64,000 nt of DNA from Medicago truncatula. Its lineage: Eukaryota; Streptophyta; Magnoliopsida; Fabales; Fabaceae. The position numbers and the translations under genes were made by a program. Shown piece after piece: positions 1,415 through 14,382 of the stretch. The DNA lies in the NCBI RefSeq assembly GCF_003473485.1, contig NC_053043.1, positions 39,532,576 through 39,596,575 on the forward strand. The letters run 5' to 3'. Positions within the stretch are counted from its first letter, which is position 1; each line of letters starts with the position of its first letter. The notes beneath the pieces were generated by a model. That model had not been told where the DNA came from. It made no database searches and was given only the letters and a program-made list of their open reading frames with translations.

Positions 1415-1979
1415 ATGGCCACTCCGACAATAACAATGTCTTCCTTCATCTTTATAATACTTTTTCACACTCTTTCAGCATCCATGGCCACCGCACAACT
1501 CCTCAACGCTGCCACTCAAGATGCTTCCAATGGAGGTTTGGTTTTAATTATTAGCCTAATATTTGTTGTTGAAATTTTGTGTTTCTATTTGTTTGCATAC
1601 GAAGTGGCAATTGTATCACGATATCTTGTTCTAGATATGTTAAAAAATTGATTTTGTGGATATTGCAGTGGCTTCTATTACTGATGAAAATTTTGGTTCC
1701 CTTGTCCTTAACTCTGAGACTCTTGTATTGGTGGAATTCTATGCTCCATGGTGTGCTTCCTGCAAAGGTGTTCATTCCAAAATGGTTGAGCTGGCAAATG
1801 ATTATGCAGGTGCGGTCAAGTTTTTCAAACTCAATGTTGATGACAATCGACTTGCTCCTTATGCATATTGGATTCAAGTTCTTCCAACTGTCCTTTTCTT
1901 CAAGAATGGTGAACACAGATATAGACTTCATAACGTATCCAAGACAACGTTTCTCAAACATATTAAACAAAACCTATGA
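1415..1979 (+). CDS. Secreted atypical thioredoxin (Trx s type), copy 1
   Basis: Exons 1415-1535 and 1669-1979, phase-1 GT-AG intron of 133 bp, giving 143 aa. Residues 1-27 form a secretory signal peptide (hydrophobic core about 9-22), replacing the plastid transit peptide of m-type thioredoxins. The thioredoxin fold follows from residue 41, with active site W68-C-A-S-C72 instead of WCGPC and a retained cis-Pro segment (LPT) before FFKNG. The intron sits at the same place and phase as in the Trx m gene at 10916. Known: legume Trx s proteins are m-derived, ER/symbiosome-targeted, have atypical catalytic sites and are expressed in symbiosis; Trx s1 is reported to act on NCR peptides. Which of s1 or s2 this is I cannot say. 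A LINE insertion lies about 250 bp after the stop. The fold and targeting are clear; the role is inferred from the family. Confidence 0.88.
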
Positions 1980-6475: not shown

Positions 6476-6871
6476 AATACTAATGAGCTGTTTTAAAATC
6501 TATAATGCTATAAAAAGTACTTAGAAAAATTTATTATTTTTTCTTAGGAAAGGTTACACACCAACACTATTCCACCGTTTCCTTAAAAAAAAAAAAAAAA
6601 AAAAAAAAAACTGTTCCACCGTCAAATAAATATTATTTTAGAGAACCCTTGGTGCCTTTAAAATTTGGTTGGATAGTGATACATGCAAGCAAAACCAATT
6701 TAAAGTTTTAATATAGGTTTAAGTGTATTTTTTAACTTTTAACTAATCAATAGTTGTGATAGCTTACCACATTTGGGTCTTTAAAACCAACAATGTTGAA
6801 AGACAGAAAATCATAAAACCCTCCTTTAATTCTCTCTCTCTCTCTCTCACTAAGTCACACTTGTTAATTCC

Positions 6872-7414
6872 ATGACTACCGTCACAATAACAATGTCTTC
6901 CTTCATCTTTATAATACTTTTTCACACTCTTTCAACATCTATGGCCACCGCACAACTCCTCAACGCTGCCACTCAAGATGCTTCCAATGGAGGTTTGGTT
7001 TTAATTATTAACCTAATATTTGTTGTTGAGATTTTGTGTTTTTATTTGTTTGCATACGAAGTGGCAATTGTATCACGATATTTTGTTTTAAATATTGCAG
7101 TGGCTTATGTTACCGATGAAAATTTTGGTTCCCTTGTCCTTAACTCTGAGACTCTTGTGTTGGTGGAATTCTTCGCTCCATTGTGTAGCCCCTGCAAGAA
7201 TGTTGATTTCAAAATGGTTGAGCTGGCAAATGAATATGCAGGTGAGGTCGAGTTTTTCAAATTCAATGTTGATGACAATCAACTTATTCCTTCTAAATAT
7301 GGGATTAAAGGTATTCCAAATGTCCTTATCTTCAAAAATGGTGAACAAAGAGATACACTTTTTGGTAACTTACCCAAGGCAACGTTTATCAGACGTATGG
7401 AACAAAACCTATGA
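6872..7414 (+). CDS. Secreted atypical thioredoxin (Trx s type), copy 2
   Basis: Exons 6872-6992 and 7101-7414 give 144 aa. The intron position and phase are those of copy 1 and of Trx m. The signal peptide is nearly identical to copy 1, with cleavage plausible near residue 27. The active site is L68-C-S-P-C72: the Trp before the first Cys is lost, while the Pro between the cysteines is kept. A cis-Pro (GIPNVLIF) is present. The 108-bp intron (6993-7100) is a multiple of three without in-frame stops, so an unspliced transcript would read through as 180 aa with an added hydrophobic stretch. Upstream sequence aligns with copy 1 from about 6491. Classical insulin-reductase activity is reported absent for Trx s; with this active site it is not expected here. 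The role in nodule secretion is inferred from the family. Confidence 0.88.
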   Translation: MTTVTITMSSFIFIILFHTLSTSMATAQLLNAATQDASNGGLVLIINLIFVVEILCFYLFAYEVAIVSRYFVLNIAVAYVTDENFGSLVLNSETLVLVEFFAPLCSPCKNVDFKMVELANEYAGEVEFFKFNVDDNQLIPSKYGIKGIPNVLIFKNGEQRDTLFGNLPKATFIRRMEQNL

Positions 7415-7931
7415 GATGGGCTATATTTTTTTTTGTTGCATGTTTTGCTTTCTTGAATAATCAATCATTTGTGGTTTTCAATGAAAAAATTATAATCATT
7501 TATGGGATGATTCCCATATTGTGGTTTTTAGATAATTATAGTCACCTACTAAGCATGAGTACTTGAAAAAATGAAGTATTTGTATCAAATACGAATTTGA
7601 GACATATTGAGGTTTTTCTTTATTCTCTGTTGTAAGTGAAATTTGTGACTTTATGATAGATAAACACAATAATATAATGGTATTTGTGTATTTGAGTTTT
7701 GCTGTTGTAAGAAAGCCACATTTTCTTAAAAAAAGAAAATGAGTGGTGATATATTCTCTTATATATATGACATCAGAGGAAGTAATGTTTTATGGTACCA
7801 AAACCATACTCAAGAGACACATAAAAGGTGATGCACATGCACTTAGAAATGAGTGGTGATATATTCATGTACAACCGAGAGAAAGAGAGAGTGGTTTTTT
7901 TGGACTGAGAATTGCTGTTTACACGTTTGGT
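7415..7931. other. 3' flank of Trx s copy 2
   Basis: Similarity to the 3' flank of copy 1 runs to about 7690 (AAGTGAAAT, then AACACAATAATATAATGG). No gene is visible. GAGTGGTGATATATTC occurs twice (about 7741 and 7850). Confidence 0.6.
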
Positions 7932-8874
7932 TTGGCTGAAAAACACGAGTAATTTACTCAAATACCCTTCGGCAGTTAACTACCGAAGTTTTAGAAAATC
8001 AGCTGCATTTTTTTTTTTTTGAAAGGTAATAAAAAAATATTCTTAATCTTGAACAATATATCTCTATTATAAATAAATGCCTTATTTTTTTTTTTCAAAA
8101 TACATGTGTCACCTTCTAATTCTAAGAACATTAATTGTTTCACCATGCCATAAAAATGTACACAAATATTATGCAAGGCAATCCTTATTTATTTATTTCT
8201 TTAATTGTTGTTTGTAGATTTAGGTGATCTTGGAAGTGAATAATGTCCATATAGAACGGCAATTTGATTTTTTTTTTGTTTCGATTTACATAAAAAAATA
8301 TGTGATAGCACGTTTATATTTTCAATTTAGCATAACTATTCTTTCGTTCCTCAATAATTTTACATACTATGTTAACCAATTTTTTTTGGTTACATCGTCA
8401 CCTTTTATTATTTAAACCAATTATAATATCACATGTGTCATCTTTATATAATACAAATGTCTTTAAAATTTAAAGTACACCTAACATGTTTATTTGCTAT
8501 ACAACATTAATTGCTTTCAAGGAAATTTACATGTAGTTACTATATAAGAAAGTGTTTTTTTTTTGTGGTGATATAAGAAAAGGTTTAATTGCGCACAAAA
8601 AACATTGATAAGCAAAACGTTTTTGTTTATATATTAAGAAATGTTAAATTAGGCAGAAAAGTCAATGGTTAAGTTTCACACACACGTATGCATAAAACGT
8701 TGAGAATTGATGTTGATAATTTATGATTTTTATCAACAAAAAAAAATCAGGTTTGAGGTTTCCTCGGTAGTTTACTGCCGAAGTTATCCTCGGTAGTTAA
8801 CTGCAGCCGATTCCATAATTCGGCAGTTAACTGCTGAGGGGTATTTTAGTAAATTACTAGTGTGACACAGCCAA
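7932..8874. mobile_element. Non-autonomous element with about 45-bp terminal inverted repeats
   Basis: The left end starts TTGGCTG and continues GAGTAATTTACTCAAATACC then CTTCGGCAGTTAAC; the right end (8760-8874) is its inverse, ending CAGCCAA. Additional copies of the CGGTAGTTAACTGC-type subrepeat lie just inside the right end. There is no coding capacity. I found no convincing target-site duplication, so the superfamily is open. Confidence 0.6.
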
Positions 8875-9499
8875 TGCATATGTGCCAACATCAATTCTCT
8901 TTTGGATTTTGTCTTTGATGCATGAGTGTATGGGTTTTCCATTGAGTGCACTCCATATATCCTTTGTATGTTGCTACTTTACGACTCTAAGCCCAACACT
9001 CCTTGTGTTAGTTAGGATTCACGGTGACTTTAATAAATTCCATTTTGACTTCTTAAAAAAAACATAATTTAAGTATGAGAGAGAGTTGTCACAAAATGAT
9101 TGTATAAATATCATTTCACCATAGAAATTGATTACTATTTAAGTAAAACGAAAATGATCAAAGTATTCACTCATTTTCTTCAACCAAGTAATTGAACTCA
9201 AATGATTAATGAATTTTATCAAAGAACGTATTCTATGGGAGAGTCTGAATTTGATTCTTGAGTTGAACAATTATTAGTCAGATTTTACGGACCTCATAGT
9301 CAAAATCAAATTATCACTCAATTTTCTAAGAACTATTTTCTGAGCTAAAACGACATAGACCTTCATCAGATTGGAGAAACTAAAAACAAATGCAAATCAA
9401 ACAGTCATACTTTAAAAATTAGTAAAATACTAATTCATCATAACATGTGTGTCTAAGTACTCAACATGAGTTTGAAATTGACTAGAAATTAAAAATAAA

Positions 9500-10440
9500 T
9501 ACTAAAACCAATGACTTGCCTCCCAAAAAGCACTTCTTTAACGTCATACTTGACACATGATGCTTAAGGTTCTCCCTTGAGCCTTTTCTCATTAGGCTCG
9601 TTATCATCCATGCTCTTCAATTATGATATCTTCACATTCTTGACTCCAATTGTATCGCCCCATATCTCTATGTAGTTACCCTTGCAAATTCGATGAACTG
9701 CAAAAGGACCATACCACCCTCTCCTAGACTTTCCACTCTTATGGAACAAATTTTGGACCTTCAACTTCACCTTGTCACCAACTTAAAATTTTGGTCAGTC
9801 AACAAATGTACCCATGGCTCTAGCTAGGTATTCACCAAAAGAAATGGTATTTCCGAGTTCCTCATGACATTCCTTCACTTTAGAAGATTCCACTCAAGGT
9901 TGCTTCTTGGTTCGTGCATCGATTAAGGATTGAGTAGTAATTAGGCAGCATCGAACATTTCCCTCATCACTCTAACTTCAGATATATTATACAATACATT
10001 ATCATTGTTGGATCTTAAGATAATCTCACCCAAGTCGACATCTATTATCTCATTAGATGTAGCAAGGAATGGTCCACCAAGAAGAAGTGGGCACTCATCA
10101 TCGTCTCTTATATCCATCACCACAAGATCTAAAGGAAATGAACTTGTACACCTTCAAAAAAGGCATCTTTTACCACACGGTAAGGGTATGTTATCAAACT
10201 ATTGACAAGTCACACGACTATATCCCATGGTTTTATCTTTAGACATGTTATCTTTTCAAAGGTGGAAATTGGCATCAGATCGATGCTTGAACCTAAGTCA
10301 GAAAAAACTTTAATAAAAAACTCACCGATCGAACATGTATTATTGAAACAACCAAAATCCAGCAATTTTTTTTTAAGTTTCTTCTCGAAAGCGGCGCGAC
10401 AATTCTTAGTGATTAACATCAATTCATCATCCTTGAATTT
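9500..10440 (-). pseudogene. Ty3/gypsy pol relic (protease plus integrase C-terminus)
   Basis: Minus-strand frames give a retropepsin-like segment with DLGSSIDLMPISTFEK (about 10300) and CPLLLGGPFLATSNEIIDV (about 10060). These are followed at 9870-9540 by an integrase C-terminal-like segment (GDKVKLKVQNLFHKSGKSR, then GWYGPFAVHRI). Reverse transcriptase, RNase H and the integrase core are missing between them, and stops and frame changes are frequent. A large internal deletion therefore joined the two ends of pol. Confidence 0.75.
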
Positions 10441-10915
10441 GCCTTTAGTAACAAGAGATCTTCCAAGAATTTAACACAACAAGAACTTTGAGCTAACATT
10501 TAGAGAAGTTTAATTGTTACTTTAGTTAACATATTCAACGACTTTTAATTGAAGAAGTTAAACTAACCCATCAAAATTAGATTATATAAGAATCGAACTT
10601 GAGACAAGAAACACACTCTAAATCCAACATCATAAGATCAACCCAAAAAAAATTTAGTTTTATTTGATTAACTTAAACCCACTAACTTTTTTGGTCAAAA
10701 ACATTTTTGAAAATTACTAGACACAAATTTTGTTGTGGAATATAAGCGTAGTTGCACTTGCAAGTGATCCTAGTCCACAGAAACAATATTATCTTCCAAA
10801 TAAAAACAACAGATACTATAAAACAAAAACATTTCATTTCCCGATTGTCTCTCTCACTCGGTCACACTTGCAACACATTTCACACACTTTTCCAGAGCTA
10901 CGATTCTCTGCAATC

Positions 10916-13900
10916 ATGGCCACCGTACAACTCGAATCCTTCTCCCTTATTCGCTCTCCTATCGTCGCTTCTTCTCGCCGGAGCACTGCCACGTTTCCTC
11001 CATACACCGGCCTCAAGCTCCGACCAGTCTCCGCCACTCGTTTGCGGAGTCAATCCACCGGTAGAGTTTTTCCTCGCGGCGGAACCGTCGTGTGTGAGGC
11101 TCGTGATACCACAGCTGTTGAAGGTTAGGGTTCGGTTAATCTTAACTTAAAATTGATGTTCAAATTTTGTTGTTTTAGATCTGTTGATAGTGATTGGTTT
11201 ATGTGATCATATGCGACTGTGACTGAGAAATTTCAATTTTTTTCGTTGATTTTGTCGGAGAGTTATTTGGGTCACAAGCAAATTGTGAGGGACCAAATTG
11301 GTTCTTTAACCTTTGGTTAGTATTTTGGTGAATTTTTTGTTACACTGTCCAGAAGCGCAGTGGCGGAGCATCCTGGGTAGGCCCACCTATGCCCTTATAT
11401 TGGTTTTATTAGAATCAGGCTTAGCATTATTGTTTAGGGGTCCTTATGACTCAACTTAATCCAGCGGGCCAAAAGCTCTTGATTCAGTTTTTAAGGCGTG
11501 TTTGGATTCGCGTTTGCATGTCAAGTATCACGTCCGGATGCAAGCTTGTTATGAGAATACTGAAGCTAGATACCAAGCTTCTATCCAGACGTGATATTCC
11601 ACTGAAATTTCATAAAATCCACAGCAGAACCAAACAAATGACTAGTTGGTCAATTTGTCCGAACCTTAAATGGTTTGGACCAATTTGTCCAACACGTACA
11701 CTAATTTTGGCTCTTGACCATCACTCTCATCACACATATGTTCCGCATGATCACTCATCACAGACAGGTTGGTTTGGGGTTGGTCAATTTGTTTGATCCT
11801 ATGGTTTAGACCAATTTCTCAAGTCCCTCCAACTCTGTGTGCATCCCTACTTTGAAGAAAGGGGTAGTTAAAATAGTTTGATCTGATGAATTTCTTGTGA
11901 TTTGACTACATATCTGCTTACGTTGGTTCTTATGAGTATTATTGTTATGCCAGATATTATTTTTATATCCCCACAGGGATAATTTTAGACTGTGTTAGTG
12001 TATCATTCTTGCAGTCAATTTGCTAGCAAACAAACATTGAGAGTGAGGTTAGAAATACCAATTTGACATTAACTGATAGGGGAGTTCTCAGCCAGGGTGA
12101 AATGGCCCCAAGCTCATAAGACGCTAAACACAAACATACACATGCTCTTCTATATTGCTTTACCACCTACATATTGAATCCATCACTTTCTCTTGCTTGA
12201 AACTAAGTGCACCCCTCGCCTCCCCTTCTATTTCCCTCCTAGGATGAGACTAGAGGAGTAGGTCATGTGTCTTCAAGTGTACACATTGAAAAGCCTCTCA
12301 ATTATGGGTGTCGAGGAAACACAGGGATCAGGTTTCTATCATGGAGCCTCATGGGGTCTACATTGCTCTATATATCTTAAGGGAGTCACGTGTGGATAAA
12401 TATCACAATGCAGGGCTGCCGCATGACTGCGGCAATTTTTTATAAGTGCCATACAAACTGGCGAGATATGTGACATGCCAAATCCATCCCTAACTAGTTA
12501 ATAGTTTGAAACATGCCACATTTCAAACAAATATGTATTAAAATTAGGCCATTTTGGACAGAATGTTGCCAAGACACTTCAGGGTGGGTGACTAGGTTCA
12601 CAACATTTGGTTTGATCATAGTGTTAGGCTGAGTTCTCAATATTTAGGTTGGGGCTTTAGCTTATTGAACACCACACGCAAAGTTGTTGTTAACCGTGGA
12701 TAAAATAGAAATAATGGAATGCATATGGTATAGACTAAGATTAGATGCCTAAGCATAGTATGCAGTTTTTGGTTTGACCAAATGCCACTTAATGGGTTTG
12801 TTGTTTAAATAGCTGCTTACTCTAATAGTTCTGAGAAAATACTTTTTTGGACCAAAATGCAGAGCAATTCTAGCTTCATATCTCGTACAATTTTTTATTT
12901 TTTATTTTTGTTTTCTCCTTTGCAGCATGCTGATTTATCTTAGCATGAAACATGTATAGATTCTTATTCATATGCCCTGGACTGGATGACCACTTTCCCT
13001 TGAATAACTGACATATATGATGATGTCATCTCATTTACTTTTTATGGTAAATCGAGCTTGTTAAATAAACGAGTTACACAACAACATAGTGAGTAAGTTT
13101 GTGGTTGAGTCTAATTGCATGGTAAGAAGTATGTGACAAAATTTCTTAAAAAAAAGTATGTCAAAATTGATGAAATGGAACTTCCTGTAATATAAATGAT
13201 CCCACACCCATTGAGAGAGAGAATAAAAAAGCTGTTTATGAGTATTAGTGTTGGAACTCTTAGACTTAAAGGATAAATTGAATGTTGTGCGGTTCAATAC
13301 CATCTTCAGAGGGGAGCTCTTTGTCTTCTTGTGGAGGGTAGATTTTAGCTATTACCTTATTAATTTTAGGACTTCTTGTTATATAACTATAAGTAATTAT
13401 GGTGTTAGTTTTCACAATCATTTAGAGAATAGTAGCGATAAATTATGACAACTCTTAATAATCTAGATCAATCTAGTCGGTTTTGAAGCATTGAGGATTG
13501 GTGTACTGGTGGATTACCAATAATCGTATTTGTTGGTACGATGTGATCGCTGTTACTTTTCACATCCTTTGACCAATATCTTACTGTGTATTTGTTTGCT
13601 TTTTTTCAATAAGCCTGTAAAATGGTATAGCTTTTTTGGTGACTCCCAGCCAAAGAAACAAGAACCAGAACTCTGATTTTATTCATTTTAATAATCCAAC
13701 TTGAACATATATTTTTAGTAGTATTTTGTATTTTAGAGGGTTTGCCTTGATTCAACAGTAAAGTCAGGTGCTGCCTTGTGACCTTTGGGGTTACAGATTC
13801 ACAAATTCAACCGTAAGACTTTGTACATCTACCTTTCTCAGACTGCAATTAATGAGAGCTTGGCGCACTGAGCTGCATTTATGTTTTTCAATTTTTGGAT

Positions 13901-14382
13901 GCATTTATCATCTGGTTTGCATGCTTTTTTTAGATCAGGATTTTGCATCTTTGTAAATTTGCAATTTGTGATCAAAGTTTTAACCATCTTCTCATTTGTT
14001 TTCGGAGAATTGTATATCTGAGTGAAATTTTTAGTGAAGTTAAACTTACGTTTTATTGGATATTGCAGTGGCTTCTATTACTGATGGAAATTGGCAATCC
14101 CTTGTCATAGAATCTGAGACTCCTGTGTTGGTCGAATTCTGGGCTCCATGGTGTGGTCCCTGCCGCATGATTCATCCCATAATTGATGAGCTAGCAAAGG
14201 AATATGCGGGTAAGCTCAAGTGTTACAAACTCAACACTGATGAAAGTCCTTCAGTTGCTACTCGGTATGGGATTCGAAGTATTCCAACTGTCATTTTCTT
14301 CAAGAACGGTGAAAAGAAAGATACAGTTATTGGTGCTGTGCCAAAAGCAACATTGACCACAAATATAGAAAAATTCCTGTGA
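10916..14382 (+). CDS. Chloroplast m-type thioredoxin precursor
   Basis: Exons 10916-11123 and 14069-14382, separated by a 2.9-kb phase-1 intron, encode 173 aa. Residues 1 to about 65 are rich in Ser, Arg and Thr with few acidic residues, a typical plastid transit peptide. The mature domain has the canonical active site W97-C-G-P-C101, RMIHPI after it, and the cis-Pro segment [20 protein letters not shown]. Trx m reduces stromal targets such as NADP-malate dehydrogenase and peroxiredoxins using electrons from ferredoxin-thioredoxin reductase. RMIHPI resembles the m4 subtype, but I would not insist on it. The intron 3' end (GGATATTGCAG followed by TGGCTTCTATTAC) is nearly identical to that of Trx s copy 1, which ties the secreted pair to this gene. 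Confidence 0.92.
11124..14068 (+). other. Large intron of the Trx m gene
   Basis: GT-AG intron with no convincing coding content. A short GGTTTGGACCAATTTGTCC-type motif recurs around 11640-11820. Compared with 133 and 108 bp in the secreted copies, this intron is more than 20 times longer. Confidence 0.7.

Follow-up and report, generated by a model that had tools for sequence, protein, structure and literature searches.

A copied plastid start region as a possible origin of the Trx s signal peptide in Medicago truncatula

Introduction

How can a plastid enzyme be redirected to the secretory route? This question is raised by a thioredoxin gene cluster on the + strand of Medicago truncatula, in which four short genes, Trx s, and one plastid-type gene, Trx m, all start within about 22 kb. 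The cluster lies in and just upstream of a stretch of 64,000 nucleotides (C2:39532576-39596575; hereafter the window, with window positions given as w) in a genome of 430 Mb and 42 contigs. Changes of compartment after gene duplication are usually inferred from genes that have diverged far. Here, the parent and its four products start close together and show modest silent divergence, and the origin of a targeting signal can therefore be traced nearly base by base.

The genes of the cluster are very likely the published M. truncatula Trx s genes, which are said to have been described by Alkhalfioui et al. in 2008 and Ribeiro et al. in 2017. The abstract of the 2008 study reportedly already derives Trx s from Trx m and mentions a signal peptide for the endoplasmic reticulum (ER), and we regard both points as published. 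Passages of a later paper link four isoforms to symbiosis and state that orthologues were not detected in A. thaliana, L. japonicus, and soybean (PMC6315971); passages of another one say the same of these three species and also of pea (PMC3783977), and a further review of M. truncatula Trx s exists (PMC5786577, seen in part). ER and symbiosome delivery are likewise taken from the literature, where passages report nodule expression of Trx s1 and its delivery to the symbiosome, as well as the control of rhizobial differentiation by one member of the family (PMC6315971). The rerouting of a plastid enzyme towards the symbiont can therefore be tested directly. An account of the origin of the Trx s signal peptide was not among the matches listed in our literature search, which covered titles, abstract starts, and passages, with subscription journals mostly outside its scope.

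The initial annotation of the window had proposed that the 5' leader of Trx m became the signal peptide by means of a new in-frame ATG and about 32 inserted bases. We arrive at a different view, to which we give slightly better than even chances: the signal peptide would have been made from a copied Trx m start, a hydrophobic core without matched source, and possibly a short tail of the leader.

Results

Trx s retains the plastid start as an internal methionine

In addition to copy 1 (s1) and copy 2 (s2) in the window, with first start codons (ATG1) at w1415 and w6872, two further Trx s genes that were absent from the initial annotation lie just upstream of it, namely sA (ATG1 at L021:8572) and sB (ATG1 at L022:769). 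These labels follow position and are not published isoform numbers. L021 and L022 denote the loci of sA and sB, and L023 to L026 are four thioredoxin loci taken as candidate Trx m outgroups; comparisons of starts and leaders used L024 alone, because no first exon was recognized for the other three. The places of sA and sB were above the PF00085 cut-off in a genome search for the family.

In all four Trx s copies, exon 2 differs from that of the window Trx m, which starts at w10916, with a synonymous divergence (dS) of 0.32-0.47 and a nonsynonymous divergence (dN) of 0.34-0.37, versus a dS of 1.12-1.29 in the comparison with the C8 Trx m paralogue. These values are simple pairwise counts by a script of our own that included L023 and L024 as outgroup loci; sA was read from a frame that begins behind an apparent shift by one base where exon 2 starts, and its first codons were omitted. 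By eye, Trx s and Trx m also correspond in where exon 1 ends, at both boundaries of intron 1, and in where the 3' untranslated region begins. Together with the shared start described below, these observations show that Trx s derived from the window Trx m, and rather recently, as the initial annotation had assumed for the descent from Trx m. The Trx s genes look like tandem copies of the plastid gene.

Two conserved anchors frame the region in question. The leader motif CTCTCACTNNGTCACACTTG is exactly present upstream of copy 2 and of Trx m, and these are the only two matches in the window with up to three mismatches (shuffle mean 0.01); at the same threshold, copy 1 has no such motif in the window. 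The start motif ATGGCCACCGNACAACTC is found without mismatch at three sites, w1484, w6941, and w10916, again the only window matches with up to three mismatches (shuffle mean 0.05). Both anchors are thus far above shuffle expectation, and the gaps between them, 45 bases in Trx m and 77 bases in Trx s copy 2, are those given in the initial annotation. With the usual spacing of about 31 bases between a TATA box and the transcript start, the box at w10817 would place the Trx m transcript start near w10848, at the leader motif, and this motif therefore probably lies where the Trx m leader begins.

The second in-frame ATG (ATG2) follows ATG1 at a distance of 69 bases in all four Trx s copies. In sB, the sequence at ATG2, ATGGCCACCGTACAACTCGAATCCTT (L022:838-863), is identical to the Trx m start at w10916-10941 in 26 of 26 bases, and the internal methionine is for this reason identified as the old Trx m start and the putative signal peptide as the 23 codons before it. 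The similarity to Trx m downstream of ATG2 was not reached by any of 400 shuffles with sA, sB, and s2, and by one with s1. The C8 Trx m also begins with ATGGCCACC, and this start therefore looks ancestral. The following elements of the original proposal hold: the putative signal peptide occupies the position of the leader between the anchors, the old start is kept as an internal methionine, and the transit peptide is mostly deleted from exon 1 of Trx s. We also noted that the 26-base identity between sB and Trx m exists although their second exons are just 71% identical, which may point to gene conversion or constraint.

The new start resembles the old one

A point that the initial annotation had missed is the resemblance of ATG1 itself to the Trx m start. 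In sA and sB, ATG1 begins with ATGGCCACCGTCACA, compared to ATGGCCACCGTACAA in Trx m. When the 30 bases after ATG1 were aligned with those after the Trx m ATG in an anchored manner, the scores were reached by 8 and 4 (sA) and by 1 and 3 (sB) of 5000 shuffles, and by 97 and 73 (s1) and 68 and 52 (s2) with the more derived copies. With 40 bases, 1 (sA), 0 (sB), 25 (s1), and 9 (s2) of 400 shuffles reached the score. The word ATGGCCACCGT occurs 47 times in the 430 Mb (39 times when reversed as a control), and four of these occurrences are in the cluster, at ATG1 of sA, ATG1 and ATG2 of sB, and the Trx m start. Of the longer ATGGCCACCGTNNCA, only four copies exist in the genome (control 5), two of which are ATG1 of sA and sB. 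The best score of the ATG1 unit against the Trx m coding start was reached by 28 of 2000 random 45-mers. Judged by these comparisons, ATG1 is better matched by the coding start of Trx m than by its leader, which speaks against the proposed emergence of a new ATG within the leader.

A comparison of ATG1 with ATG2 within each Trx s copy, as an internal repeat, was set aside: the total score was reached by 23 (s1), 7 (s2), 31 (sA), and 4 (sB) of 400 shuffles, and the unanchored score in copies 1 and 2 by 210-501 of 2000. We considered a target-site duplication by a mobile element as the cause of the direct repeat formed by ATG1 and ATG2 and left it as unsupported, because the insert was not found elsewhere in an insensitive search and because the sequence before ATG1 is not the end of the Trx m leader.

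Several results weigh against a copied start. Without anchoring, the ATG1 unit did not significantly match the Trx m start (664-1494 of 2000 shuffles with copies 1 and 2, 113-361 with sA and sB). Shuffling the order of codons gave the score in 133 (s1), 167 (s2), 43 (sA), and 50 (sB) of 2000 cases, and in 85 (sA), 68 (sB), 728 (s1), and 51 (s2) of 5000 when the first codon was kept. No end of the Trx m leader was detected upstream of ATG1 (257-400 of 400 shuffles), and a pure tandem duplication would therefore also require the loss of about 37 bases. A model in which the whole segment was duplicated was not significant either, with 13 (sB), 18 (sA), 77 (s2), and 23 (s1) of 120 shuffles. In simulations of a faithful 45-base copy at 27% divergence, scores as low as the observed one came up in 7, 58, and 163 of 1000 runs with 0, 2, and 4 small insertions or deletions (indels), respectively; a copy would therefore have been short, or its middle part would have changed faster or come from elsewhere. 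Finally, there is no charged residue before the hydrophobic core, and the positive charge that is usual for signal peptides is thus absent.

These results also bear on the view that the upstream segment was a random insert that was recruited de novo and that resembles the Trx m start by chance and by its start-codon context. Starts with ATGGCC are common and favored in plants, and convergence on this context may explain part of the likeness of ATG1. The unanchored comparisons and the codon-order shuffles agree with a random insert. However, even if all 43 occurrences of ATGGCCACCGT outside the cluster were gene starts, they would make up only about 0.1% of the roughly 45,000 genes, and the base shuffles with sA and sB reached the anchored score so rarely that we regard a random insert as unlikely.

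A more specific scenario would be one in-frame duplication of 23 codons across the start that placed the copied start together with the translated leader before the plastid gene. The product would have become secreted and the old start reused as a signal-peptidase site, with neither the capture of a foreign signal nor plain translation of the leader. We view this as a serious but doubtful possibility.

The leader is a poor match to the signal peptide

The central assumption of the initial annotation was that the 77 bases between the anchors are the leader of Trx m enlarged by an insert of about 32 bases. In support of this, both anchors are kept. Reading upstream from the Trx m ATG, 65 codons (w10721-10915) are also free of in-frame stops, and an upstream in-frame ATG would therefore extend the protein. 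However, in anchored global alignments of the 77 bases with the Trx m leader, the best of the four copies scored 4.6, which was reached by 379 of 1000 random 77-mers, and shuffles did as well in 1889-1930 of 2000 cases (sB, s2) and in 109-117 of 120 (four copies). At a silent difference of 27%, a leader of 45 bases that gained one insertion would be expected to remain alignable. We simulated this descent, using 1000 runs per setting and 0, 2, or 4 extra small indels. At 27% divergence, global scores of 4.6 or lower resulted in 1, 13, and 25 of 1000 runs, respectively; at 35% divergence in 20, 42, and 72, and at 45% in 157, 198, and 276. With the local score (best observed 11.9), the values at 27% divergence were 26, 54, and 136 of 1000, a weaker contrast than with the global score. 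A composition of leader plus insert is thus not supported.

What remains are short similarities. An inner patch that the initial annotation had aligned, TTTCACACNCTTT, indeed occurs unchanged at w1463, w6920, and w10878; a further site, w13558, has one mismatch. The chance mean is 0.82, and four matches were reached by 3 of 100 shuffles. When the inter-anchor segments are compared, the patch is weak, as loose scoring gave 615 and 651 (copy 2) and 420 and 484 (copy 1) of 2000 shuffles. The 13-base form of the patch in sB, TTTCACACWCTTT, which occurs in the same order in the leader, was reached by 105 and 114 of 2000 shuffles with strict scoring and by 81 and 97 without gaps.

A second similarity concerns the C8 paralogue. 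The 40 bases before ATG2 of s1 resemble the end of the C8 Trx m leader (10 and 14 of 500 shuffles), as do the last 16 bases (1 of 400), but in copy 2, sA, and sB the likeness is weak (94-147 of 500 and 42-59 of 400). In front of ATG2, no copy matches the leader end of the window Trx m (89-399 of 500 and 186-400 of 400 shuffles). The C8 leader was rejected as an outgroup, as it could not be aligned with the window Trx m leader (1901 and 1864 of 2000 shuffles with loose scoring; 466 and 453 of 500); its comparison with copy 2 or sB was not significant (865-1760 of 2000), and it was close only to s1, in the anchored test.

We therefore abandoned a plain descent from the leader, for which local, anchored global, and simulated comparisons gave no indication beyond the 13-base patch, and consider it improbable that leader translation with a new ATG made the signal peptide. 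As only the patch and the resemblance of s1 to C8 remain, just the last 21 bases before the old start are kept as a possible part of the leader, for which they are weak candidates. Of the conversion of a leader into a signal peptide, the place and the old start are thus retained, and the leader as source finds little support beyond, at most, this short tail.

The hydrophobic core and its source

The middle part of the unit, about 30 bases, encodes SSFI(F/I)(I/L)ILF and does not match Trx m. The Kyte-Doolittle maximum over nine residues is 2.7-2.8 in all four Trx s copies, compared to 1.3 in the Trx m transit peptide. As this core has no match in Trx m and hydrophobic cores are common in secreted plant proteins, the segment could have been captured from an unrelated secreted gene by exon shuffling, or it could be transposon-derived filler. 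However, genome searches with 122 bases, 80 bases, and 41 residues at E<=10 gave only the four Trx s copies, although the DNA search is insensitive. It skips common words, and a query of 331 bases from the Trx m leader and exon 1 retrieved nothing but its own locus, leaving out both the 26-base identity in sB and the C8 paralogue. Because such known short or diverged matches were missed, the empty donor search is weak evidence of absence. This also applies to the unrelated donor exon that the initial annotation had named as a finding that would speak against its proposal, and of which these searches revealed none in this genome. The gene structure argues against capture as well, as a single exon contains both ATG1 and the old start, without an intron separating them. 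Altogether, a foreign origin of the entire segment seems rather unlikely. Words of 12 and 13 bases at w46415 and w62945 were considered as a nearby template of the core and are probably chance matches.

According to the -3,-1 rule, Ala-Thr-Ala before Gln is a good signal-peptidase context. This sequence is found at the old start of s1, s2, and sA, where MATA precedes QL, whereas sB keeps the Val (MATV) and does not fit the rule. Other sites in Trx s satisfy the rule as well. On the basis of these sequences, the Val-to-Ala change looks as if it had adapted the old start to serve as a cleavage site.

Discussion

In the origin that we favor, a piece of about 69 bases, i.e., 23 codons in frame, would have been placed before the Trx m start in the common ancestor of the Trx s genes. 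The piece would begin with a second Trx m start (ATGGCCACCGT plus ACA), continue with the approximately 30 bases of unmatched source that encode the core, and end with about 21 bases that are possibly the tail of the old leader. The start could have been copied by a tandem duplication that spanned the start codon or during repair, by an insertion for which it served as the template. Translation would then begin at the copied start and read through the old one, and the protein would enter the ER, with the region of the old start at a position where signal peptidase could cut; this region was originally Met-Ala-Thr-Val and has become Met-Ala-Thr-Ala in all copies but sB. The deletion of most of the transit peptide would have abolished plastid import.

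A related case is the type III antifreeze protein, whose origin from sialic acid synthase was reportedly described by Deng et al. in 2010. The similarity lies in the layout, as in both systems duplicates form a tandem array and the signal peptide is built at the 5' end of the parent itself, which for the antifreeze protein is cytoplasmic. For the Antarctic eelpout, the derivation from sialic acid synthase is treated in passages of two papers (PMC3449122, PMC7737890), one of which describes the antifreeze signal peptide as 54 nucleotides of 5' flank together with the first six codons of the parent (PMC3449122), so that the old start lies inside the signal exon; Trx s has a similar arrangement at its old start. 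There are also differences. For the antifreeze protein, flanking sequence is given as the source of the upstream part, and the parent gene was largely lost, whereas in Trx s the upstream ATG looks copied from the old coding start and the larger part of the segment does not match the leader. When Trx s is compared with the antifreeze gene point by point, anchors on both sides are shared with the parent, and the old start codons may form part of the signal region, with the restrictions on cleavage described above. A segment recognizable as the leader of the parent was not found beyond the short patch.

In Arabidopsis, a duplicate of the PRX36/PRX72 pair lost its original start codon, gained a new one, and had its product moved to another compartment, according to passages of PMC4202327. 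Trx s likewise is a duplicate with a new start codon and a changed compartment. In contrast to Trx s, however, the peroxidase case concerns the cytosol and the cell wall instead of the plastid, and the old start was abolished and not kept as an internal methionine.

Features of the cluster and its surroundings

The coordinates of the Trx m and Trx s features in the window are compiled in Table 1.

Table 1. Features of Trx m and of Trx s copies 1 and 2, with positions in the window.
Feature	Position	Strand	Basis
Trx m TATAAA	10817..10822	+	sequence; general spacing rule
Leader motif CTCTCACTCGGTCACACTTG before Trx m	10851..10870	+	exact motif search
Remaining Trx m leader, 45 bases	10871..10915	+	free of in-frame stops from w10721 on
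Trx m exon 1, transit peptide, end GAAG/GT, phase 1	10916..11123	+	splice sites by eye
Trx m exon 2, thioredoxin domain with WCGPC	14069..14382	+	PF00085, E 7.4e-32
Leader motif before Trx s copy 2	6844..6863	+	exact motif search
Trx s copy 2 putative signal-peptide unit MTTVTITMSSFIFIILFHTLSTS, ATG1 up to the base before ATG2, 69 bases	6872..6940	+	sequence comparison
Copy 2 unit tail (TTTCACACTCTTT...), sole part possibly former Trx m leader	6920..6940	+	weak similarity
Copy 2 old Trx m start as internal Met, ATGGCCACCGCACAACTC, MATAQL	6941..6958	+	ATA before Q fits -3,-1 rule
Trx s copy 2 exon 1, lacking most of the transit peptide	6872..6992	+	sequence comparison
Trx s copy 2 exon 2, thioredoxin domain, LCSPC	7101..7414	+	PF00085, E 3.2e-24
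Trx s copy 1 putative signal-peptide unit MATPTITMSSFIFIILFHTLSAS, 69 bases	1415..1483	+	sequence comparison
Copy 1 old Trx m start as internal Met	1484..1501	+	motif search
Trx s copy 1 exon 1	1415..1535	+	sequence comparison
Trx s copy 1 exon 2, thioredoxin domain, WCASC	1669..1979	+	PF00085, E 3.8e-23

The active sites differ among all four Trx s copies, with WCESC and WCGQEC in addition to the two motifs in Table 1, and none of them has the WCGPC of Trx m. Among the Trx s exons at w1669-1979, w7101-7414, L021:8867-9247, and L022:1051-1367, the mutual dN/dS ratios range from 0.71 to 1.96 by simple count, and four of the six pairs are above 1. These ratios and the four different active sites are a hint at positive selection among the Trx s copies. 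The apparent one-base shift of sA is at the start of exon 2 (L021:8867-8890), where a stop soon follows in the frame of exon 1; sA may thus be a pseudogene, be spliced differently, or be affected by an assembly error.

Between Trx s copies 1 and 2, there seems to be a remnant of a retroelement that resembles long interspersed nuclear elements (w2230-4560, limits by eye), whose open reading frame at w3522-4508 matches zf-RVT (PF13966, E 7.1e-18). Far downstream, an open reading frame on the - strand (w59008-59460) matches the Mlo family (PF03094, E 8.2e-16).

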